In this document: piece by piece, positions 34,044 through 43,669 of the stretch | How positions within the stretch are numbered: position 1 is the first letter of the stretch | Layout: every line of letters starts with the position of its first letter | NCBI RefSeq assembly: GCF_021233435.1 | Contig: NZ_CP089468.1 | Coordinates: 1,364,001 to 1,428,000 of the forward strand | Source of the DNA: Halobacterium noricense | Lineage (GTDB): Archaea; Halobacteriota; Halobacteria; Halobacteriales; Halobacteriaceae | Length of the DNA: 64,000 bases | Direction: 5' to 3' | Notes under the pieces: model-generated | Seen by the model: the letters and a program-made list of their open reading frames with translations, nothing else | Database searches by the model: none | What the model was told of the DNA's origin: nothing | Translations under genes and position numbers: made by a program

Positions 34044-35444
34044 ATGCAGCTGTTCTGGCACCGCCGCGACCTCCGCACGGCCGACAACCGCGGGCTCGCC
34101 GCGGCCACCGATTCGGGCGAGGTCGTCCCCGTGTTCTGCTTCGACGACGTCGTCCTCGACCACGCGAGCCCGCCACGAGTGGCGTTCATGCTGGACGCGC
34201 TCGCCGACCTGCGGGCGCGCTACCGCGACCTCGGCAGCGACCTCCTCGTCCGTCGCGGCGACGCGTCGGCGGCGCTGCCCGCGCTCGCCGAGGAGTACGA
34301 TGTCGACCGCGTCGTCTGGAACCACGACTACTCGGGGCTCGCCCGCGAGCGCGACGAGGCCGTCCGCGCCGCGCTCGACGACGCTAGCGTCTCCCACGAG
34401 CAGGTCCACGACGCGGTCTTCCACGAGCCCGGCGCGATTCGCACGAACGCCGGCGACCCCTACTCCGTGTACACGTACTTCTGGAAGAAGTGGCAGGACC
34501 GCGAGAAACCGGAGCCAGTCCCCGAACCAGCCGAGGGAGACCTCGCGGACGTGTCGGGCGAGGAGTTGCCGACAGTGGCGGACCTCGGATTCGCGGAGCC
34601 CGACGCAAAACTGCCAGCCGCAGGGACGGACGCAGCTCGCGAGCGCCTCGCGGCCTTCTGCGAGGACGACATCTTCCGCTACGAGGAGGCCCGCGACTAC
34701 CCCGCGCAAGCGGCGACGTCGCGGCTCTCCCAGGACCTCAAATTCGGGACGATTGGCGTCCGCGAACTGTACGAGCGAACGGAGGACGCGATGGCCGAGG
34801 CGGACGGCGAGGCGGAGCGTGAGGGCGTCGAGGAGTATCAGGGGCAACTCGCGTGGCGGGAGTTCTACGCACAAGTACTGTACTTCAATCCGGAAGTCGT
34901 CTCGCAGAACTACAAGGAGTACGCGAACCCAATCGAGTGGCGCGACGACGATGCCGAACTCGCGGCGTGGAAGCGTGGGGAGACGGGGTACCCAATCGTC
35001 GATGCGGGAATGCGTCAACTCCGCGAGGAGGCGTACATGCACAATCGCGTGCGGATGATTGTCGCCTCGTTCCTGACGAAGGACCTCCTGGTGGATTGGC
35101 GCGAGGGGTACGACCACTTCCGCGGGCACCTCGTCGACCACGACACCGCCAACGACAACGGCGGCTGGCAGTGGGCGGCCTCCACGGGCACCGACGCACA
35201 GCCGTACTTCCGCATCTTCAATCCGACGACGCAGGGCGAGCGCTACGACCCGGACGCCGAGTACATCACCGAGTACGTCCCGGAGCTACGGGACGTGGCT
35301 GCCGAGAAGATTCACGCGTGGCCGGAGTTGGACGCCGACGAGCGCGCGGAACTCGCGCCCGACTACCCGGATCCGATTGTGGACCACGGCGAGCGCCGCG
35401 AGGAAGCAATATCGATGTTCGAGCGGGCACGCGGCGACGGCTAA
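34044..35444 (+). CDS. phr: Deoxyribodipyrimidine photolyase
   Basis: A 466-residue CPD photolyase that uses FAD and blue light to split pyrimidine dimers. The N-terminal alpha/beta antenna domain opens MQLFWHRRDLRTADNRGLAA and has VVWNHDYSG. The FAD domain begins near 270 (LAWREFYAQVLYFNP), with GYPIVDAGMRQLREEAYMHNR and DHDTANDNGGWQWAA plus TDAQPYFRIFNP, all conserved. The N-terminal sequence resembles the Halobacterium phr2 product, which supports the assignment and the genus. The ATG at 34044 is the conserved start. It is the last core gene before the repeat-bearing region to its right. Confidence 0.95.
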   Translation: MQLFWHRRDLRTADNRGLAAATDSGEVVPVFCFDDVVLDHASPPRVAFMLDALADLRARYRDLGSDLLVRRGDASAALPALAEEYDVDRVVWNHDYSGLARERDEAVRAALDDASVSHEQVHDAVFHEPGAIRTNAGDPYSVYTYFWKKWQDREKPEPVPEPAEGDLADVSGEELPTVADLGFAEPDAKLPAAGTDAARERLAAFCEDDIFRYEEARDYPAQAATSRLSQDLKFGTIGVRELYERTEDAMAEADGEAEREGVEEYQGQLAWREFYAQVLYFNPEVVSQNYKEYANPIEWRDDDAELAAWKRGETGYPIVDAGMRQLREEAYMHNRVRMIVASFLTKDLLVDWREGYDHFRGHLVDHDTANDNGGWQWAASTGTDAQPYFRIFNPTTQGERYDPDAEYITEYVPELRDVAAEKIHAWPELDADERAELAPDYPDPIVDHGERREEAISMFERARGDG

Positions 35445-35455
35445 CCGGAGTCGGA

Positions 35456-35475
35456 AATACGGTTAGTACAGACAA
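35456..35475 (+). repeat. Tail-only copy of the 85-bp array repeat
   Basis: The segment reading CGGTTAGTACAGACAAG corresponds to the 3' tail of the repeat (compare R1 and R5, CGTTAAGTGCAGACAAG). It lies between phr and the first lipoprotein gene of the array, and there is no matching 5' half. Confidence 0.5.
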
Positions 35476-35507
35476 GGCACTTACCGGAGCCGTGCGAGTG
35501 TTCAGGT

Positions 35508-36221
35508 ATGAATCGACGGCACGTTCTTCTGGGAGCGACAGCCGCCTTAGCGGGAATGGCGGGCTGTTCCTCGGGCGATAGTGCCTCTCCAACAGACTCC
35601 GATGGAATCTCTGGAACTACAACACCAGGCTCGGAGACAGCAACGGAGACGACATCACCGACAACAATTGAGCAAGCCACAATCGAAGACCTGAATCTTG
35701 GTGCAGCTGTCGTCACGCAACCATCGGAGGAATCACCGGCCGAGATAGCACTGACGCTTGCTCACACACACGATGAGTCGATATCGGTCTCCCCGGTGAG
35801 CTTGGGAACGTACGCCTTCGAGTTTCTGCAGCCACTGAGTGGGGAGCGCGGTGCCGTATTGTTGTACCCGGATTCGCCCCGTGTGAGTCTTGCGCAGGGT
35901 GAATTTCCGGAGGACCCCGTCAACGGCTGTTGGCGGGTGATTGATACGAGTGCGGAGGGTGAACGAGGCCCCTATCTCAAGGGACAGAATCTGGCAAAAG
36001 AGAAAGAAATTGCGCCAGATGAAACGTACAGTGTCCTCCACGAAGCCTATTATCGAGGGCCGGACTCCTACTGTTTCCCGGCCGACACCTATGAGACGAT
36101 GGCCGAGATAGAGTTCGGCGATCGAGAGCAGAGCGTTGAACTCACCTACACTCTCGATGTTTCCTCTGGCGGAGAGTTCGAGATTTCTGTCGAACACGAG
36201 TTGTGGGACGAATCGAATTGA
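35508..36221 (+). CDS. Tat-type secreted lipoprotein (array unit 1)
   Basis: A 237-residue lipoprotein. The N-terminus MNRRHVLLGATAALAGMAGC has the twin-arginine pair and a lipobox, followed by a 40-residue S/T/G-rich linker. The mature part contains two pairs of beta strands and a central PDSPRVSLAQGEFPEDPVNGCWRV with a lone Cys, then YCFPADTYETMAEIEFGDREQSVEL. I know no family for it. It would be folded before export and anchored on the cell surface. The codon use is visibly less GC-biased than the photolyase next to it, and a tail-only repeat precedes it. The first complete repeat begins 85 bases after its stop. Confidence 0.78.
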   Translation: MNRRHVLLGATAALAGMAGCSSGDSASPTDSDGISGTTTPGSETATETTSPTTIEQATIEDLNLGAAVVTQPSEESPAEIALTLAHTHDESISVSPVSLGTYAFEFLQPLSGERGAVLLYPDSPRVSLAQGEFPEDPVNGCWRVIDTSAEGERGPYLKGQNLAKEKEIAPDETYSVLHEAYYRGPDSYCFPADTYETMAEIEFGDREQSVELTYTLDVSSGGEFEISVEHELWDESN

Positions 36222-36305
36222 ACCGAGAAACGCGTTATACTACTATGGCAACGTCTCCTAATTGCCGTAGAGACGACGGCTGAGCTTACCCGTGCGTTAT
36301 ATTCG

Positions 36306-36392
36306 CACACCTACTGAGCGGCTGTTTCACGTCAAATCAGCTGGTGAGAACCCGCCTCGATGCGGTTCGGCGTTTCGTAAGGTACAGACAAG
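36306..36392 (+). repeat. Array repeat R1
   Basis: First full copy of the array repeat. The 5' half forms a two-tier stem: GAGCGG (36316-36321) with CCGCCTC (36352-36358, one bulged C), and inside it GTTTCAC (36324-36330) with GTGAGAAC (36344-36351, one bulged A and a G-U pair). The tail is TTTCGTAAGGTACAGACAAG. A second tail-like CGGTTAGTAC follows at 36401-36410. Confidence 0.85.
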
Positions 36393-36467
36393 CCGATTCA
36401 CGGTTAGTACAACTGCAGGCGGTCACAAAACCTATGTTTATGTTGTTGTGAAATCCTTGTAAGGAAA

Positions 36468-36683
36468 ATGAGTGAAGCGATAGAGCAATCCCGGGAGACG
36501 ATATTCCACGGATACATCGGCTGGCACGTCAGAGCGATTATCTGGACAGTTCAGGTCATTATCATCGGGGTTATCCTCCAATTCGTATTGGGAAGAATTG
36601 GTACTCTACTCACATTCCCGGTATCTGCTCTGCTGTTGTTCCGCCAGCTCCACCACCACATCATTCACGAAACAACTGAATAA
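36468..36683 (+). CDS. Small membrane protein (array unit 2)
   Basis: A 71-residue protein with one long or two short hydrophobic segments at about 20-57 (VRAIIWTVQVIIIGVILQFV, then a glycine-arginine break, then TLLTFPVSALLLF) and a histidine-rich end (LHHHIIHETTE). No family is recognised. An A-rich promoter-like sequence, CACAAAACCTATGTTTATG, precedes it, and GTAAGGAA just before the ATG may serve as a ribosome site. The gene ends 22 bases before repeat R2. Confidence 0.65.
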   Translation: MSEAIEQSRETIFHGYIGWHVRAIIWTVQVIIIGVILQFVLGRIGTLLTFPVSALLLFRQLHHHIIHETTE

Positions 36684-36705
36684 GTCGCCCCAACTTCGCG
36701 GTTTG

Positions 36706-36787
36706 CACCCCTACTGAGCGGCTATTTCACTCCGGGTTCGCTGGGAAGAATTTGCCTCGGTGTGATGCGTAGCTTCTCTAAGTACGC
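36706..36787 (+). repeat. Array repeat R2
   Basis: Shares CCCCTACTGAGCGGCT with R1. The 3' arm is TTGCCTC rather than CCGCCTC; GAGCGG can still pair with it through G-U wobbles. The middle (TCCGGGTTCGCTGG) is diverged. The tail is TGCGTAGCTTCTCTAAGTAC. Confidence 0.8.
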
Positions 36788-36845
36788 GGGATCGTGGTAT
36801 CGGTCAGTCTCGAAGTGACTTGATTGTGTTTTCTGTCTACCCACA

Positions 36846-36870
36846 AAACACTTTATTGCTGGTTTGGGAA
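36846..36870 (+). promoter_or_regulatory. Array-type promoter of unit 3
   Basis: ACAAAACACTTTATTGCTGG precedes the unit 3 ATG (36879) with the TATTG core about 27 bases upstream. Related sequence precedes unit 4 (ACAGAAAACTTATTGCTAC) and, more loosely, unit 2 (ACAAAACCTATGTTTATG). The shared ACA(A/G)AA...TTATTG pattern suggests that each unit carries its own promoter downstream of a repeat. Confidence 0.5.
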
Positions 36871-36878
36871 CTGACAGT

Positions 36879-37514
36879 ATGCGCCGTGAATTGATGGTCG
36901 TCCTCCTCGTGCTGCTCGCTGGCTGTAGCGGGCTGAACGGCGGCGCTCCCTCCACGCAACCAACAGAGACGACGTCCCCGGACCCAACAACTACGTCCAG
37001 CCCGTCGAATGCAACGCCGAGTAACACTGTCAACTACACCGAACTCTCGGACACCGAGCAACGAGCGTTCGATACCGCCCAGCAGCGACAAGTCGGGTTC
37101 GCTCCCGACGCTATCCGTGAGTCACCATACGTCAATCGAACGTACTTCCCCACTGACGCTCAGGACGTTTTCCAGAATCACGAGTACGTCCTGAAGAACG
37201 GGACGTACTATCGCCTCACGTGGCATGTCGGACCAATCGTGGCACAGCATATAATCGAGGTCTCTGAACGAGAGCAAGCACCGCCTGAGAATGCCACTGT
37301 CGTGTCTCTCGGAAATTTCACGCCGGACGTTCGAGAGGCCGTCGAAAAGGCGATTGAGAACGGACGGTACGAGACGACGTTTGGGAAATGGAATGCGTTA
37401 CCTGACGAGTTAGACGGTGTCGATTATATCCGAGACGGTGAACAATATTATGAACTAAGCATCGGATACGGTGATTACTGGGGCGAGGAAGTGCGCGCGG
37501 AGCCAGTCCAGTAG
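36879..37514 (+). CDS. Secreted lipoprotein with YY-containing repeat domain (array unit 3)
   Basis: A 211-residue lipoprotein. MRRELMVVLLVLLAGC is a short signal with lipobox LLAGC, followed by a T/S/P-rich linker. The domain has NYTELSDTEQRAFDTAQQ, then YVLKNGTYYRLTWHVG and, further on, a second degenerate unit (PDELDGVDYIRDGEQYYELS). The same pattern, an L-S/P-x-T-x-Q-x-A-F helix followed by a YY-containing strand, occurs in array unit 11, so the two are paralogous domains. No family name is known to me with confidence. It ends 23 bases before repeat R3. Confidence 0.78.
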   Translation: MRRELMVVLLVLLAGCSGLNGGAPSTQPTETTSPDPTTTSSPSNATPSNTVNYTELSDTEQRAFDTAQQRQVGFAPDAIRESPYVNRTYFPTDAQDVFQNHEYVLKNGTYYRLTWHVGPIVAQHIIEVSEREQAPPENATVVSLGNFTPDVREAVEKAIENGRYETTFGKWNALPDELDGVDYIRDGEQYYELSIGYGDYWGEEVRAEPVQ

Positions 37515-37537
37515 CAAGTCAGTACTCAATATAGATG

Positions 37538-37622
37538 CATCTCTACTGAGCATTTGTTTTACACCAAATGCAGTTGGTGAGAACCTGTCTCGAAGTGGCG
37601 AGTAGCTTCGGTATGTGCAGGG
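37538..37622 (+). repeat. Array repeat R3
   Basis: The 5' arm is GAGCA and the 3' arm TGTCTC. The consensus G-C pair is replaced by A-T, a compensatory change at the outer stem. The inner stem keeps TTTTAC with GTGAGAA. The tail is GCGAGTAGCTTCGGTATGTG. Confidence 0.8.
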
Positions 37623-37681
37623 TTCTCTAATTGTTATGTACTCACAGAAAACTTATTGCTACAACGGCAGTTATAATTAAC

Positions 37682-38209
37682 GTGAATAACCGGGTTCAAG
37701 CAGGCCTCATTACTGTGCTTACACTCGGCATCCTGTACGTTCTCGCCACAATTGAGGGGCGGCCAAATGCGACCGCCCTCTCGCCCCTCGGGTCTGCCCC
37801 AGCAATCGGAGTAACAGGAATCGTTTTTGGAGTGGCTAGTTACGTTACAATCACGGAGAAATACGGCCCAGAATCAATCCTAGAGGCCGCGAGTGTCGTC
37901 ACGCTCATGTATGGTGGAGCTGCGCTTGGACTCACTGAGTTCAGCCTGTGGTTGCTGGACAAGGAGATTCTCTTCTTAGTGTTCGGCTTGGGAACGATAC
38001 CCGCTGCAACCGGCGGAGCGCTCGCAGTAGGGTCATATAGAGATGAACTGCTGTTTGGTAGTGTATTCGTTGTGGTATCGCTAGGTTTGGCGTTCTATCT
38101 TCGCGGCGACCTGCTGAACCGAGTCGTCCTGCACACGTGGGCGATGGTTCCCGGGCTCCTCCTTGGATTTGTGTACACGAGTGCGATGAAAGCCGGCGTA
38201 TTTGAGTGA
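37682..38209 (+). CDS. Multi-helix membrane protein (array unit 4)
   Basis: A 175-residue membrane protein with five or six hydrophobic segments (from VNNRVQAGLITVLTLGILYV to VVLHTWAMVPGLLLGFVYTS). No family is recognised, and no charged catalytic cluster is visible. The GTG at 37682 is preferred over the upstream frame start (37631) because a TATA-like CTTATTG lies 27 bases before it and VNNRVQ begins the first helix. Repeat R3 ends 59 bases upstream; the gene is followed by a tail-only repeat copy at 38275. Confidence 0.7.
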   Translation: MNNRVQAGLITVLTLGILYVLATIEGRPNATALSPLGSAPAIGVTGIVFGVASYVTITEKYGPESILEAASVVTLMYGGAALGLTEFSLWLLDKEILFLVFGLGTIPAATGGALAVGSYRDELLFGSVFVVVSLGLAFYLRGDLLNRVVLHTWAMVPGLLLGFVYTSAMKAGVFE

Positions 38210-38274
38210 TCGACCGTGCCCGACTCACCTGAGAGATTCGCCCATTTGCTTTTAATTGGTATAGACACGAGAGG

Positions 38275-38289
38275 TCTCGCTAAGTACAG
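38275..38289 (+). repeat. Tail-only repeat copy between units 4 and 5
   Basis: TCTCGCTAAGTACAG matches the repeat tail of R7 (ATCGCTAAGTACAG). The 5' stem half is absent or too diverged to recognise. A TATA-like TTTATTG follows at 38293-38299. Confidence 0.5.
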
Positions 38290-38359
38290 GGCGTTTATTG
38301 AGTTTTCATCATAGTCTTCTGTAATTAGATACTTGTATGCAGATTACCATGTGTGATTT

Positions 38360-38527
38360 ATGGCACGAAAAAGAGTGATTTTTCGACTCAACCTCATCAT
38401 CTGGCTTCTATCCATCCTTATTGCGATGGAACTATGGCCAGTTCTACGCACGGGAAGGGGAATCGTAGTCATCTTAATCGTGACGCTGGCCGCCATTCTC
38501 TATTGGGGCCTTTATAAGATAGATTGA
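38360..38527 (+). CDS. Very small two-helix membrane protein (array unit 5)
   Basis: A 55-residue protein starting MARKRVIFRLNLIIWLLSIL. Two hydrophobic helices (about 7-23 and 34-50) flank a short charged turn (PVLRTGRG). It has a basic head, in keeping with the inside-positive rule. It is small and unlike any family I know, but has an ATG, a good helix pattern and a stop 4 bases before repeat R4, exactly the layout of its neighbours. A possible chance frame cannot be excluded. Confidence 0.6.
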   Translation: MARKRVIFRLNLIIWLLSILIAMELWPVLRTGRGIVVILIVTLAAILYWGLYKID

Positions 38528-38531
38528 CAGT

Positions 38532-38619
38532 CCATCTATCGACTGAGGGACTGTTCCACGCCAAATCTAGCTGGTGAGAACCCGCCTCAACGTGATGAGT
38601 AGCTCCGATACGTACAGCG
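38532..38619 (+). repeat. Array repeat R4
   Basis: Has GACTGAGGGACTGTTCCACG and AACCCGCCTC; the 5' outer arm GAGG pairs with CCTC without the bulge. CTGGTGAGAACCCGCCTC is identical to R1 in the 3' arm. The tail is GATGAGTAGCTCCGATACGT. Confidence 0.82.
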
Positions 38620-38683
38620 CCCACCATATTGTAGGCCCATCCACAAATATAATATCCCCCAACTTTTAGTTGAAACCAAACAC

Positions 38684-39112
38684 ATGAAGTCATCCTCTTC
38701 CCGCCGAAAATTCCTCTCCACCGTTACGACACTCTCTATGTTAGGTATAGCGGGATGCTCTTCCTCTCAGCAACGCACCGACGCAACGGTATACCTCTCA
38801 AATCTGTTGGATAGTAAACAGGCAGTAGTTATTCAAATTTTCGATGCTAATGATTCCAAAGTTTGGGAGCAACAAGCAGAACTACCTGCTGCACCACCTA
38901 ACGAGGCCCCATCTGTCAACACAGTAAACGCCTTACAATCCGTCGAGATAGGTTCCAAATTCCGGATTGAAGTCGATGTTGACTCAATCGAAAAAACAGC
39001 GACGAGATATATTACGATTGACTGCAAGGATAGTGAATTCGTCAGAATCCGAATTATGAAGCGATATGAAGGGGGAAAACCGGTAGTCGATTTCAGAGAG
39101 CCTTCTTGCTAG
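38684..39112 (+). CDS. Tat-type secreted lipoprotein (array unit 6)
   Basis: A 142-residue lipoprotein. SSRRKFLSTVTTLSMLGIAGC carries the twin-arginine motif (SRRKFL) and the lipobox. The mature part begins SSSQQRTDATVYLSNLLDSK and is beta-rich, with TARYITIDC-like strands (ATRYITIDCKDSEFVRIRI). No family is recognised. The ATG at 38684 follows a promoter-like AAATATAATATCC. The closest relatives by appearance are the Tat lipoproteins of units 1 and 8. It ends 50 bases before repeat R5. Confidence 0.78.
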   Translation: MKSSSSRRKFLSTVTTLSMLGIAGCSSSQQRTDATVYLSNLLDSKQAVVIQIFDANDSKVWEQQAELPAAPPNEAPSVNTVNALQSVEIGSKFRIEVDVDSIEKTATRYITIDCKDSEFVRIRIMKRYEGGKPVVDFREPSC

Positions 39113-39162
39113 ATGAAGCACGCAACAGAGCCAGAACGGAGCCACAACTTTCGAGCTTAGTT

Positions 39163-39252
39163 CACACCCCTACTGATCGACTGTTCGACGCCAAATCCAG
39201 TTCGGGAGAACCCATCCCGATGTGGTGCGGCATTTCGTTAAGTGCAGACAAG
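39163..39252 (+). repeat. Array repeat R5
   Basis: The 5' arm is GATCGA and the 3' arm CCCGATG. ATCG pairs with CGAT, where other copies have GAGCGG pairing with CCGCCTC, so both sides changed together. The tail CGTTAAGTGCAGACAAG is the longest match to the tail-only copy at 35456. Confidence 0.82.
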
Positions 39253-39282
39253 ACATTTACACGTTCGAAGGATTCTACCCGT

Positions 39283-39843
39283 ATGGCTACGACAGAGGCT
39301 AAATCACTCATCATTTTAGGACTCATCAGTAGTCTTCTTACCATCGTTGGTCTTTGGCCTGAATATGGGCCGTTAAATGCTGACCTTCCGGAATTGGCCA
39401 CTATTCTTCTCCTTCTGATTAATCTCGGATTTGTCGTAACTGGTTGGTTCTGGTTCCGAGAGTCTGCACCCGGTCAAAGTCGGTACGAGCAGGTTCCAGC
39501 GGTCGTTATTAGTCTGGTCGGTATCACGGGTATCGTCGGGAGTCTTGTCGTGTTTCAGCCGTGGCAGTACACTGGGATGGCCGCCGGTCTATTTTTCGTT
39601 TCTACTGGTCTGTTCGTTATTCCCGGTATCGGGCTAAGTCTGAGTGGCTATTTCTGGTTTCGGCAGCGGGAGATGCGGTATCCACTTGCATTGTTGGTTG
39701 GTTTACTGGCTGTCGGTCTCTTATATATCATCCGTCAGCGATTGAGTGTTATTATTGAAATTCCGCTCTTTGCGATTGTCGTTGTGGCTGTCTTCGCTCT
39801 GCCAGTTGTCGTAGTTCTCCGGGTTACTCACCATAGTCATTAG
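39283..39843 (+). CDS. Multi-helix membrane protein (array unit 7)
   Basis: A 186-residue membrane protein with six hydrophobic segments. Two pairs of helices end in an aromatic G-W/Y-F-W-F-R motif (GWFWFRESAPGQS and GYFWFRQREMRYP), an internal duplication. No family is recognised. The ATG at 39283 was chosen because the frame upstream (39106) overlaps repeat R5 and the preceding gene. It ends 13 bases before repeat R6. Confidence 0.72.
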   Translation: MATTEAKSLIILGLISSLLTIVGLWPEYGPLNADLPELATILLLLINLGFVVTGWFWFRESAPGQSRYEQVPAVVISLVGITGIVGSLVVFQPWQYTGMAAGLFFVSTGLFVIPGIGLSLSGYFWFRQREMRYPLALLVGLLAVGLLYIIRQRLSVIIEIPLFAIVVVAVFALPVVVVLRVTHHSH

Positions 39844-39856
39844 CAAAGTAACTACC

Positions 39857-39941
39857 ACCACTCTACTGAGCGGCTGTTTCACTCTGAATCAGCTGGTGAG
39901 AACCCGCCTCGATAGGTTGAGTACTTTCGTTACGTACGGGT
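39857..39941 (+). repeat. Array repeat R6
   Basis: CTCTACTGAGCGGCTGTTTC and GTGAGAACCCGCCTCGATAG match R1 almost exactly; the loop CTCTGAATCAGCTG is shared with R7. The tail TTTCGTTACGTACGG follows. It lies 10 bases before the stop codon (complement 39952-39954) of the minus-strand gene, so here the repeat is downstream of converging genes. Confidence 0.85.
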
Positions 39942-39951
39942 GTACAACTAA

Positions 39952-40488
39952 TTATTCTGAGTTAACCCTCGCGTCAAGGTCAAAGGGTGTAATATTGCTG
40001 TCAGAGACTGCCTGATTCCGGGGCTCAGTATTGTGGACTCGGAGATAGCCGAATCCATCATCTCCCCATGTGGTACTGACCGATGCGACACCACCGAGGG
40101 TAAGTTCGTTAAAGGCGGTTTGTGTGGCCGCTGTATTGACTGGGGTCTTATCTCCCTCAGTCGATTCTACATTAGCAAGATACCGCACGTCCTGGAACTG
40201 ATTTCTTAGTGCCTCGTGGAGATCGTCGGAAACGGTAACGAACCGTTCATCGATAGCAGACGCTATGTACTCCGGATCGTAGGACCCGTGGAGGATATTT
40301 TCATCCTGCTCGAAAATCACGTTGAGCAGGTCAGTCCTGACCGGGTTCCCATCAGCACTGGTCACCTCGACGTCGATTGATTTCCTCAAAACGAGTCCTG
40401 TCGTCGTGTCGGACGTACCAAGGCAGCCAATCACCCCGACAGCACTCGCAGTACTCACTCCTGCGAGAAACTTCCGGCGGGAGGGCAT
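39952..40488 (-). CDS. Tat-type secreted lipoprotein, inverted (array unit 8)
   Basis: A 178-residue lipoprotein on the minus strand. MPSRRKFLAGVSTASAVGVIGC has a twin-arginine motif and a lipobox. The mature part begins LGTSDTTTGLVLRKSIDVEV and contains a long acidic helix (ASAIDERFVTVSDDLHEALR). No family is recognised. It lies between R6 (its downstream side) and R7 (its upstream side), in opposite orientation to the repeats and to units 1-7. Confidence 0.78.
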   Translation of the reverse strand: MPSRRKFLAGVSTASAVGVIGCLGTSDTTTGLVLRKSIDVEVTSADGNPVRTDLLNVIFEQDENILHGSYDPEYIASAIDERFVTVSDDLHEALRNQFQDVRYLANVESTEGDKTPVNTAATQTAFNELTLGGVASVSTTWGDDGFGYLRVHNTEPRNQAVSDSNITPFDLDARVNSE

Positions 40489-40554
40489 ACCCTAGACATG
40501 TGGCATACCGAGAAAATATCTTGTGCCTGGTTCACTTCACCAATACTCGATATA

Positions 40555-40637
40555 CACCGCTTGGGCGGCTGTTCCACTCTGAACCAGCTGGTGAAAACCA
40601 GCTTCCTCGGTGTTCGATGAATCGCTAAGTACAGACG
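40555..40637 (+). repeat. Array repeat R7
   Basis: GGGCGGCTGTTCCACTC and GAACCAGCTGGTGAAAACC are conserved; CCAGCTGG is itself a palindrome, making the loop symmetrical. The 3' outer arm (CTTCCTCGG) differs. The tail is ATCGCTAAGTACAGACG. Confidence 0.78.
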
Positions 40638-40746
40638 ACCTACCCATCGTTGCGTACAGTGGCGGTACTGCTTCTCGAACTACTTGGGATAGTCGCGCCT
40701 GGACTACCTGTGGCCTCACTCTCTGACGGTCCGAAACGGCCGACGC

Positions 40747-40908
40747 TCAGGAGGCCAGGAAGATTGTCGCGGCGAGCAGGATGACGAAGAGCAGGAACGG
40801 AAGGAGGATCCAGACCACGCCCCACCAGCTCGACCCAGTCGAGTCGTCGTCCGAGGGTTGTAGAGACCCTGGAGGGGAATCACCCATGGCGCTACCGGGG
40901 TCATTCAT
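40747..40908 (-). CDS. Small C-terminal-anchor membrane protein, inverted (array unit 9)
   Basis: A 53-residue minus-strand protein. An acidic, serine-rich head (MNDPGSAMGDSPPGSLQPSD) is followed by one hydrophobic helix (WWGVVWILLPFLLFVILLAA) that ends the protein. It would be a tail-anchored membrane peptide. The start at 40908 or at 40887 (MGDSPPG) is uncertain. It lies between R7 and R8 and is the second inverted unit in the array. No family is known. Confidence 0.6.
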   Translation of the reverse strand: MNDPGSAMGDSPPGSLQPSDDDSTGSSWWGVVWILLPFLLFVILLAATIFLAS

Positions 40909-41010
40909 GTGTGAGTCTTTGGCGTGCCTCCCATAAATACTTCCTGTGGTAACTGTTCGGAACGATGTCGGCCAGCTCCACGTCTCTCGTTTGGGAGTGT
41001 AGCAGTCGCA

Positions 41011-41091
41011 ATCCTCTCGAGCGGCTGTTCCACGCCAAATCAAGTCCGTGAGCACATGCCTCGATGTGGTGCGTTGTTTCTGGAAGTACAG
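41011..41091 (+). repeat. Array repeat R8
   Basis: The last full copy. CGAGCGG pairs with TGCCTCG. GTTCCACGCCAAATCAAG and CGTGAGCAC keep the inner stem with a mismatch. The tail TTTCTGGAAGTACAG follows. Confidence 0.8.
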
Positions 41092-41190
41092 TTGCACCAC
41101 CACTCAGTACAGATCTCCACAAGACACTTCGCACAGTCGTTATCTAGCTTTGCTGTGAACCGGTGAAGTATTGTATTGGCTGTTTCCGGG

Positions 41191-41763
41191 GTGATTCTAC
41201 TATGGATCGCGGTTCGTATGGGAGGGCTCTCAACGGGCTATGGGCTCGGTCGAGCATCGGTACTTCTCCGCGTCGGAATAGCATACGCTGCACTCGGCAT
41301 ACTAACCGGCATCTTGCGTCCGAACACGGTACGAAAGCGGGTGTTGAACGCGATAGCGACGCTCGCCGTCGTCTTCGTCACCGGTGTCATAGTCATGTAT
41401 CTCGATTTAGGAGTTTACCCGCCCGAATATGGCACGCCCCTGACTCTCCGCCGGCTGGTCGGCACACAGATGGAACTACTGCTCGTCACGCTCCCGGTTC
41501 CAGCAGGCTACCTCGCAGGAATCCTCGTGCGAGAACGAACAAATCTCGAAGCGGCAGGCCTCTTGCTCACCGCGATGGTCGTCGGATTCGCCGGTGGAAC
41601 GTGGATTTCGTTAGCCCGAGGAAGTGCACCCGGCTTCACCCAATTCATATTCGCTGGGGCAATCCTCGCAACCACCGCATTCGCACTACTCCCCCTAGTT
41701 GTGATGGCATGGCTCGATCGAGACAGGCACAACATTTTGTGGCGCGATACGACGGGTGACTAG
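41191..41763 (+). CDS. Multi-helix membrane protein (array unit 10)
   Basis: A membrane protein of about 190 residues with six hydrophobic segments (VILLWIAVRM, VGIAYAALGILTGIL, ATLAVVFVTGVIVM, LLVTLPVPAGYLAGIL, LLLTAMVVGFAGG, ILATTAFALLPLVVM). No family is recognised. The start is uncertain: a GTG at 41191 is given here; TTG at 41176 and ATG at 41218 are in frame, and the latter would remove the first helix. It lacks a repeat on its 3' side; the next gene starts two bases after its stop. Confidence 0.65.
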   Translation: MILLWIAVRMGGLSTGYGLGRASVLLRVGIAYAALGILTGILRPNTVRKRVLNAIATLAVVFVTGVIVMYLDLGVYPPEYGTPLTLRRLVGTQMELLLVTLPVPAGYLAGILVRERTNLEAAGLLLTAMVVGFAGGTWISLARGSAPGFTQFIFAGAILATTAFALLPLVVMAWLDRDRHNILWRDTTGD

Positions 41764-41765
41764 CA

Positions 41766-42422
41766 GTGGCAGAGAATCACGCTCAGTGCTGGCCAATTCT
41801 GCTAGTCGGTATCGGCCTCGGAATGGTGGTTTTCGGTGGGCAAGCCACGCACTTTGCGAATTTGCCCGAGTTCACGTACAGTGTGGAGGCGACAACACGG
41901 GCCGCCGCAACCGAAGCCGCCCAAGCGTCAGACCCCGGCGTCGACGTCATCTACCAGTTCACAGAGCTGCCAGCAACCGCACAGGACGCCTTCCGCCAAG
42001 CACTCGAAGCCCCGGACAACAGAACCACGATTCGAGGCCTGGAACACCAAGTCACGGAATTAACGAGCGCAAGTGATACCACCGCACAGCCCGGGTACGG
42101 GCGCTACTACGTCGAGTATCAGGAGAGCTACTACGAATTCACGATTCGACAGCCGATGAACTCTGCCGCGTCGTCGTCGTTGCTCGGGTACGCGTTCGTC
42201 GTCCTCGGAGCTATCGTCGGGGTCTGGGGCAGTTTCGAACACGGGTCGACGACCCGTGCCCTACTCGCACACCTGAGTGGGGTCGTTTCCTTCCTTGCGG
42301 TGTATGGTGTGACCGGCTGGTGGGGGCTCAATACCTTCCTGTCCCTCGTCGTCGTCGGCGCTGTTTGTACGTACCTCCCGGCAGCCAGCGTGTGGTCGGT
42401 TTATGGAACACTTCGTTCCTGA
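41766..42422 (+). CDS. Membrane protein with YY-containing domain (array unit 11)
   Basis: A 218-residue protein with an N-terminal helix (about 10-24), an extracellular domain of about 110 residues, and three or four C-terminal helices (SLLGYAFVVLGAIVGVWGSF onward). The extracellular part has FTELPATAQDAFRQALEA and RYYVEYQESYYEFTIRQ, the same helix-then-YY-strand pattern as in unit 3. It begins with GTG two bases after the stop of unit 10, so the two are likely cotranscribed. It is the last gene before the convergent MFS transporter. No family is named with confidence. Confidence 0.7.
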   Translation: MAENHAQCWPILLVGIGLGMVVFGGQATHFANLPEFTYSVEATTRAAATEAAQASDPGVDVIYQFTELPATAQDAFRQALEAPDNRTTIRGLEHQVTELTSASDTTAQPGYGRYYVEYQESYYEFTIRQPMNSAASSSLLGYAFVVLGAIVGVWGSFEHGSTTRALLAHLSGVVSFLAVYGVTGWWGLNTFLSLVVVGAVCTYLPAASVWSVYGTLRS

Positions 42423-42496
42423 GTGTGTGTATCCGCGTCCCAGTTCGGTCGTTTGAATTCCGAGCACCAGTCTGAGCGAAGAAATTTCGCTAGCAA

Positions 42497-43669
42497 CTAC
42501 TCTGAAGCCTGCCGGGCGACCTGCGTCCAGACGACGATTGCCCCGATTGCCGTGACGGCGGCGGCGAGCGTCCACGCGACGTCGTAACTGAAGCCGTCGA
42601 CGACGAACCCGAACAGCGGCGGCGCGGTGATGCCGCCGAGGTTCAGCATGGTCTGGCCGCCCGCGGTGGCGGCTCCGACTTCGTCGTCGTCGACGATGGC
42701 GGTCATCGTCGCGTAGTAGACGCCGGGGAACCCGAGAATGAACAGCCCTAGCAGCGCGAACGCGACGGCCGACGTCCATGGGGTCTCCGCGACGGTGACA
42801 CCGAGGAAGCAGACGGCGGCGAGGACGCCCTGTGCGGTTAGCACGAGTGCGGGGCCGCGGGCCGGCGAGCCACCGAGCCGGTCGGAGAGTGCGCCGCCGA
42901 CGAGCCGGCCGACGCTGCCCGCGACCTGCACGCTCGCGAGCACGGCACCCGCGAAGCCGGCGGCGACGGCGACGGATTCGGTCATGTGGAGGACGACGTA
43001 GCCCGTGGTCGTGAACACCGTCGCGCCGAGGAACAGGCCGGCAACGACGAGCCCTCGGTACGCGGGGTCGTCGAGGAGCCCGCGGACGTCCGGCATCGAG
43101 AGTGTTCCGGAGCCGGCCGTTCCCTCGTAGCCGGCGGCGAACGCTGCGGCGACGACGACGGCGATGCCAGCGATGACGAGGAAGCCCGCGCGCCAGCCGA
43201 AGCGGGTGGCGGCGATGCCTGTGACGAGGAGCGCACCGAGACCGGAGCCGCCGGTGACGCCGACCTGTTTGACGTTCATCGCGAGGTTGCGGCTGCCCTT
43301 CGGGGAGACGGCGACGATGGCGCGGTTGGTTGCGGGCATCGCGGTGGCGTACGCGAATCCGAGGACGACGAGCGCGGCGAGCAACAGTGGGAACGTCGGC
43401 GCGTACGCGACGCCGATGCACCCGACGGCCATGCCGAGCAGCCCGACGATCATCACGGGGCGTTCGCCGTAGCCGTCGACCGCAGCGCCCGTTCCGAAGA
43501 GGAGGACGGTGTAGCCGAGCATGATGGCGGTGACGACGGTGCCGGTGAGCGCGCGGGAGATTCCGAAGTCGCCGCGGACGAACGCTGTCGACGCGAAGAT
43601 GGCGTAGAACGCGAGGCTCGCGGTGAACTGCCAGCCGGTCACGAGGCCGACGCCGCGCCACGAACGCAT
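42497..43669 (-). CDS. MFS transporter
   Basis: A 390-residue major facilitator with twelve helices. The first helix pair contains a GYGERPVMIVG-type loop (motif A region: GAAVDGYGERPVMIVGLLG) and the second half has a GGALSDRLGGSPARGPALVL counterpart. The middle has PATNRAIVAVSPKGSRNLAM, seen in the nitrate/sugar-type clades. The start is uncertain: ATG at 43669 (MRSWRGVGLV) or at 43708; I favour 43669 since the extra stretch is polar and not conserved. The substrate is unknown. It is convergent with the array and divergent from sod. Confidence 0.87.
   Translation of the reverse strand: MRSWRGVGLVTGWQFTASLAFYAIFASTAFVRGDFGISRALTGTVVTAIMLGYTVLLFGTGAAVDGYGERPVMIVGLLGMAVGCIGVAYAPTFPLLLAALVVLGFAYATAMPATNRAIVAVSPKGSRNLAMNVKQVGVTGGSGLGALLVTGIAATRFGWRAGFLVIAGIAVVVAAAFAAGYEGTAGSGTLSMPDVRGLLDDPAYRGLVVAGLFLGATVFTTTGYVVLHMTESVAVAAGFAGAVLASVQVAGSVGRLVGGALSDRLGGSPARGPALVLTAQGVLAAVCFLGVTVAETPWTSAVAFALLGLFILGFPGVYYATMTAIVDDDEVGAATAGGQTMLNLGGITAPPLFGFVVDGFSYDVAWTLAAAVTAIGAIVVWTQVARQASE

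Follow-up and report, generated by a model that had tools for sequence, protein, structure and literature searches.

What kind of element fills the interval between phr and an MFS gene in Halobacterium noricense, where 11 small genes share the space with eight ~85-bp repeats on the same strand? The window, by which we mean the whole stretch analysed (64,000 nucleotides of contig NZ_CP089468.1, positions 1,364,001 to 1,428,000), had earlier been interpreted from its sequence alone as holding a cassette-like array of genes mostly for membrane or secreted proteins, and that description of the cargo agrees with ours. We consider it probable, though well short of certain, that the interval consists of a series of exchangeable gene modules that functions like an integron cassette array, with a trans-acting recombinase operating at short cores. 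Related species have these gene units in different orders and locations, with joins at one short repeated sequence, and this speaks for an archaeal system, so far undescribed, in which genes are shuffled much as in bacterial integrons.

All features given below lie on the plus strand unless stated otherwise. The phr 3' end (35430–35444), the target of the array and one copy of a duplicated ~15 bp, is followed by the left end of the array, CCGGAGTCGGAAATACGG (35445–35462), which is common to strain KA-4 (G011). The right end (42468–42484) is a repeat head only, CAGTCTGAGCGAAGAAA, and is followed by what appears by eye to be a degenerate second copy of the phr 3' end (42486–42501; TTCGCTAGCAACTACT vs tCGCGCGGCGACGACT in H. 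hubeiense). In line with the sequence-only reading, all eight repeats were recovered by cmsearch in one orientation, at 36296–36395 (R1), 36696–36795 (R2), 37528–37628 (R3), 38525–38625 (R4), 39155–39255 (R5), 39848–39947 (R6), 40543–40642 (R7), and 40999–41099 (R8), with E-values of 1e-22 to 7e-29 against a model built from these same eight copies. The tail-only copies reported near 35456 and 38275 are real and hold isolated cores of the core2 type described below (T1, 35460–35471; T2, TCGCTAAGTACAG, 38277–38289). The reported repeat spacing of 400–1000 bp and the inversion of units 8 and 9 are likewise correct, and six repeats do follow plus-strand stops, at a gap of about 0 to 75 bp rather than 4–85.

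The ~85-bp repeat was found with the covariance model in 56 of 391 haloarchaeal genomes, representing 25 of 86 genera, on both plasmids and chromosomes; the model found none on viral contigs, where a single pattern match (L190) was seen. Nine more copies lie elsewhere in the same H. noricense genome, so the repeat of the window is not a product of chance. Neighbouring repeats are co-oriented 43:3 (36:3 outside the window, P=2e-8). Copies do occur beside unrelated genes across haloarchaea, a pattern which the sequence-only reading would have taken against cassettes, but they form co-oriented arrays, and unrelated neighbours therefore fit cassettes rather than refute them. The repeat had also been called structured, a description our tests do not support: base-pair counts were no higher than in shuffles, a mutual-information scan of 133 copies gave no pairing signal, and folding energies of 42 copies were near those of shuffles (mean z of -0.3 for the top and -0.5 for the bottom strand). 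A hairpin or RNA structure was rejected on these tests, and an Rfam search of the window matched a tRNA only. We conclude that the repeat is strongly conserved as sequence and not as structure.

Comparison with relatives shows that the content of the locus is variable. In three Halobacterium species nothing lies between phr and MFS (G008, G009, and G010; junction of 0–4 bp); H. hubeiense (G002) has a single VapBC-like unit at this site, and KA-4 an array of different content. Copies of 10 of the 11 units exist elsewhere, reordered or alone. The lipoprotein gene of unit 1 (35508–36221) has a 94% copy in G009:C57 in a different order, and the 71-aa membrane protein of unit 2 (36468–36683) a 94% copy on H. 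hubeiense pSTJ001. Unit 4 (membrane protein, 37631–38209; listed ORF, true start uncertain) recurs in G011 and G009, and unit 7 (membrane protein, 39283–39843) in pNRC200, G010, and G011 as 598-bp copies of 87–91% identity, in each case beside other neighbours. Lone copies were found for unit 3 (lipoprotein gene, 36888–37514; G002, G008, and G009), unit 5 (55-aa membrane protein, 38360–38527; G073), unit 8 (lipoprotein gene, 39952–40488, minus strand; G124 and G160), and unit 9 (small membrane protein, 40747–40908, minus strand; G219 and G383, with the left end at a core). The membrane protein genes of units 10 (41176–41763) and 11 (41766–42422) are joined in G009; unit 10 stands alone in G007, and a full repeat precedes unit 11 in G011. 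No relative was found for unit 6 (lipoprotein gene, 38684–39112). The order is U1, U10-U11, U4 at locus L065 and U4, U7, U11 at L064, and at one Halorubrum site an identical core is followed by different units in G219 and G214. The Halorubrum intergenic region proved too variable to yield an unambiguous unoccupied site for a lone unit.

The boundaries of the units coincide with a short core (GNTAAGTW and then C), of which there are direct copies at both edges of the repeat: core2, TTCGgTAAGTACAG, at the 3' edge and core1, GnTAARTtCGCA, at the 5' edge. The best-preserved junctions fall at GNTAAGTW^C, with DNA of 100% identity ending exactly there. This is the case for L158/L163, where a 235-bp unit plus repeat has a core at each end, for L133/L141, and for unit Y, which stands behind a different core in each of L133, L061, and L073. 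The L028/L061 junction lies at the repeat start, and the lone units of L130/L184 (95.9%) and L065/L186 (92.4%) are bounded from core2 to core1. No inverted repeats were found that would mark the ends of an insertion sequence next to unit Y. Among lone units, core2 is present at 15 of 25 left ends in non-IS cases (p≤0.02) and core1 at 11 of 30 right ends; some ends have no recognisable core. The switch points reach the repeat edge in 15 of 19 pairs. The unit boundary is the short core at both repeat ends, and gene units occur without the repeat too. Variable occupancy of one locus in sister species, altered unit order in other genomes, and junctions at repeat edges are the kinds of evidence that the sequence-only reading had called for, and they support its cassette-like interpretation. 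A unit composed of repeat middle and tail, gene, and repeat head, with crossover within the repeat, was considered and dropped in view of the exact junctions.

We suggest that each module would sit between two direct copies of the GNTAAGTW-C core, and that a recombinase acting in trans, probably of the tyrosine type and borne by plasmids or viruses, would join cores by a crossover directly 3' of GNTAAGTW. Modules could thereby be inserted, excised, and reordered, presumably via circular intermediates, with or without the adjacent ~85-bp repeat, the body of which may act as an accessory binding region that makes the core efficient. A more specific proposal, to which we give somewhat less than an even chance, is that of a new archaeal gene-capture platform on haloarchaeal plasmids and chromosomes, combining a one-armed direct core, also common to at least one other repeat family (type B), with an 85-bp double-stranded accessory repeat and a trans recombinase distinct from integron integrases and from known transposases. 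No published description of the repeat sequence or of such a system was found in the literature searched.

The sequence-only reading had looked to a tyrosine recombinase linked to such arrays elsewhere, and none is consistently linked to them. Relatives of the tested integrases occur at 7 of about 84 repeat loci within the flanks examined. A plasmid-type tyrosine recombinase (P0001, WP_010890429) adjoins one array, on pNRC100. This integrase and its close relatives are missing from several repeat-bearing species, and we rejected it as the general enzyme, since G000, G006, and G011 alone have close relatives of it and these do not adjoin arrays. Among 142 neighbour proteins (25 commonest families listed) there was no recurrent recombinase or defence gene.

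The lack of a linked enzyme would suit homologous or microhomology recombination between dispersed repeats and cores, with no dedicated recombinase. Repeat-mediated deletion and deletion-coupled insertion have been reported between Halobacterium strains (PMC10264941), and homologous recombination also contributes here, given that 4 of 19 junctions lie within repeats. As the whole explanation it is unlikely, since the youngest junctions (≥97% identity) share one position next to the core instead of lying in the 80-bp interior, and since lone units sit at degenerate cores (TCACTCAGTTCAG and ATCGTTAGATGTAG) where almost no homology is available. It also leaves the 43:3 co-orientation and the conservation of the repeat in 25 genera unexplained.

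Less likely still is that a unit is a non-autonomous, MITE-like cargo element with repeat head and tail as its ends, arrays being tandem insertions made by a DDE or HUH transposase in trans. The H. hubeiense insertion at phr, whose left end is inverted, has a ~15-bp duplication on its flanks, which agrees with this, as do isolated units with head-only right ends; the duplication shows that at least one arrival took a different route. Target duplication was not noticed at the other junctions examined, including those of lone units; the boundary is a shared direct core, units carry differing repeat copies or none, and no transposase family recurs widely among the neighbour proteins. IS200/IS605 elements insert immediately 3' of a short fixed motif and leave no duplication; they need end hairpins and TnpA. 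Cleavage of the HUH type on the 3' side of a fixed tetranucleotide would likewise give the one-sided junction seen here, but the conserved hairpin that HUH ends need was not seen in the haloarchaeal repeat, nor was a linked transposase. MITEHsal1/2 and ISH2 resemble our repeats as short, dispersed, non-coding repeats mobilised in trans and frequent on plasmids (PMC10264941), whereas MITEs end in inverted repeats, duplicate their target, and as a rule carry no cargo, in contrast to co-oriented arrays with genes between the repeats.

The sequence-only reading also offered a 3' UTR element copied with paralogous genes, and a transcript end or regulatory element moving in this way would fit the position of the six window repeats directly after plus-strand stops and a weak TATA-like bias 3' of the repeat tail. 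We regard it as very improbable: across 136 copies, 76 of 135 upstream and 74 of 134 downstream genes share the orientation of the repeat, the window proteins align only at background identity, and RNA structure was not found. Gene orientation next to repeats is random, which contradicts terminator or promoter readings.

Bacteria and some archaeal phyla are known to shuffle cassettes in the integron manner, using integron integrases. In attC sites the fold is conserved more than the sequence, and a CALIN is a cassette array without integrase, so that absence of IntI is expected there. Much of the likeness to integrons and CALIN noted earlier stands: co-oriented site repeats lie between small unrelated genes, units come and go and change their order, with exact joins at the edges of the repeat, a single crossover point is suggested, and the array lacks an integrase as a CALIN does. 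The earlier match to the attC core holds insofar as GNTAAGT is one position off GTTRRRY, with position 2 variable. Unlike integrons, the repeat has no attC fold and no covariation, core1 and core2 are direct rather than inverted as with R'', and no IntI is linked. A true integron, in the form of a CALIN with divergent attC sites, is scarcely credible despite this layout and the presence of integrons in other archaeal phyla (Ghaly et al. 2022, PMC9668308, whose main text does not mention Halobacteria), as sequence is conserved over fold, the crossover lies 3' of the box and not at G^TT after the first G, and units frequently move without the repeat.

Among other systems, XerC/D dif modules of Acinetobacter plasmids are small gene modules bounded by short sites and moved by a host recombinase in trans. 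The likeness lies in the small gene modules between short recombination sites; by inspection, dif sites are 28-bp, two-arm, and inversely oriented, whereas the haloarchaeal core has one arm, is direct, and is accompanied by an 85-bp repeat. If haloarchaea evolved their own site and enzyme for this task, modular gene capture would have been solved there independently, many orphan genes for lipoproteins and membrane proteins on haloarchaeal plasmids would be accounted for, and archaeal genetics might gain a tool. With the core position and the lone units, the proposed system is directly testable through excised circles.

All eight ~85-bp copies of the window's repeat (type A) were recovered, on one strand, by repeat finding and a covariance model from the Halobacterium chromosome (G000:C1:1364001-1428000), and the two isolated repeat tails near 35456 and 38275 proved to be real. 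Nine additional copies lie elsewhere in this genome, across all three contigs, some of them clustered. The consensus of 136 copies, [C/T]GnTAARTtCGCAcaCCtACTGAGCGGCTGTTTCACtCCgAATcaGCTGGtGAGAACCcGCCTCGATGTGGTGaGTaGcTTCGgTAAGTACAG, has a sharp 5' edge and bears a short core at its 3' edge (core2; GNTAAGTW then C) with a direct copy at its 5' edge (core1). The initial description of the repeat as structured did not hold, as pair counts were not above shuffles and folding energies were close to them; no pairing signal emerged when 133 distinct copies were scanned for mutual information, and Rfam returned no match for the repeat. What is conserved is the double-stranded sequence itself. Downstream of core2, model positions 93-107 show a conserved, though weak, TATA-like bias (AGgA...A.TTA.CG); it lies ~28 bp upstream of the start codon in some units and may be a leaderless promoter that travels with every unit.

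Comparison of sister genomes, which the sequence-only reading had proposed, showed that the content of the phr|MFS locus (gene names taken over from that reading) varies among close relatives, since empty, 916-bp, 5.7-kb and 7-kb states are seen. The two genes are immediate neighbours in G008, G009 and G010, separated by 916 bp in H. hubeiense, by a 5.7-kb array in Halobacterium sp. KA-4 and by 7 kb in the window. The H. hubeiense insert holds, by reading, a CopG/PIN-like pair and lies between duplicates of a ~15-bp stretch from the 3' end of phr. Its left end (L121, G002:C1) resembles the repeat head and middle in inverted orientation, and the right end consists of the head only; taken with the duplication, these ends look as though phr had first been reached by another mechanism.

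Whole units are common to the window and to KA-4 and CBA1126, with their order changed. Contig C57 of CBA1126 reads unit 1, units 10-11, then unit 4, and KA-4 has units 4, 7 and 11 with others interspersed. Copies of 10 of the 11 window units exist elsewhere, several of them alone in genomes without the repeat. A unit-plus-repeat beside fni (type 2 IPP isomerase; loci L073, L133, L141, L161, L162 and L061) is 99.8-100% identical across Halobacterium, Halorussus, Halohasta and two other genomes; judged by this identity, it is a very recent plasmid exchange between genera.

The best-preserved junctions of such units fall at the cores. Two 235-bp units of Halomicrobium urmianum (each made of 143 bp and a complete repeat, 99.6-100% identical) both begin after GGTCA[A/G]TACAG and stop after GGTCAGTACAG, with abrupt divergence outside both ends. 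In Halorussus litoreus and Halohasta litorea, unit and repeat are identical as far as GGTAAGTACAG and then differ, and G219 (Halorubrum by our reading) and G214 have left flank and core in common with different units behind. A further unit, Y, is found behind three different cores, one degenerate (ATCGTTAGATGTAG). For another, X, the copies on pNRC100 and on the plasmid of the window species are near-identical as far as the repeat start, where a direct second core copy lies (GGTAGATT). Lone units of high identity span core2 to core1 (L130/L184, L065/L186). By our own tally from the table, core2 stands at lone left ends in 15/25 non-IS cases (p<=0.02) and core1 at 11/30 lone right ends. Maximum-likelihood switch points extended to an edge of the repeat in 15 of the 19 pairs, not all independent, and lay in the interior in 4; homologous recombination within repeats also occurs. 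Our reading of the alignments would put the crossover 3' of GNTAAGTW, at model positions 89|90 and 8|9.

The simplest account would be that an enzyme acting in trans recombines one-armed direct cores site-specifically at a single crossover point, the repeat body probably serving as an accessory binding region. Such an array would work like one of integron cassettes, to which the initial reading had likened it in layout, yet by the features tested this is not an integron. A tyrosine recombinase adjoins the pNRC100 array; its linkage to arrays is not general, and we rejected it as the general enzyme. Among the commonest families of the 142 neighbour proteins there is no recurring recombinase. 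Archaeal integrons have been described in nine phyla, with Halobacteria unmentioned in the main text (PMC9668308), and the portion consulted of an IntegronFinder study of halophiles, which included 47 archaeal genomes, names a bacterium as the sole carrier of a cassette cluster (PMC7923331). The repeat head sequence had no match in the freely accessible journal papers searched.

The covariance-model search likewise proposed at the outset found the repeat in 56 of the 391 haloarchaeal genomes, which represent 25 of the 86 genera (E<=1e-6, E-values being rough), including 8/13 Halobacterium genomes. Consecutive copies (<2 kb apart, median spacing 596 bp) share a strand in a ratio of 43:3, or 36:3 without the window copies (P=2e-8). 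Neighbouring genes point the same way as the repeat only slightly more often than chance would give (upstream 76/135, downstream 74/134; gene calls beyond the window are approximate). By a simple hydropathy rule applied to calls from a home-made gene picker, membrane or lipobox proteins are predicted for 66% of repeat-neighbouring genes vs 38% of other genes at the same loci; few window cargo proteins have Pfam matches. ISH8- and ISH27-like elements repeatedly adjoin or interrupt plasmid arrays (L026, L057, L188, L072 and others).

A second repeat family, type B (~55 bp; ...GCGACACTACCGGCCGACAATCTACTAGTAGGCTCGGTGAAAGTGGA), also forms co-oriented arrays (L247:1293-1446, about 2018293-2018446 of G000:C1; also L263 and L074), which sit behind genes, among them a PemK/MazF-like toxin. 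G001 has both types in one array. In G000, G001 and G010 a ~160-bp B segment stops exactly at GCTAAGTACAG, the same core as in type A; its G005 counterpart is GCTAGGTATAG. Some modules between cores, in Halomicrobium (L158:5583-5818 and L163) and the window's genome (L247:1447-1640), contain internal palindromes; these modules are short and rich in GC and seem not to code for protein.
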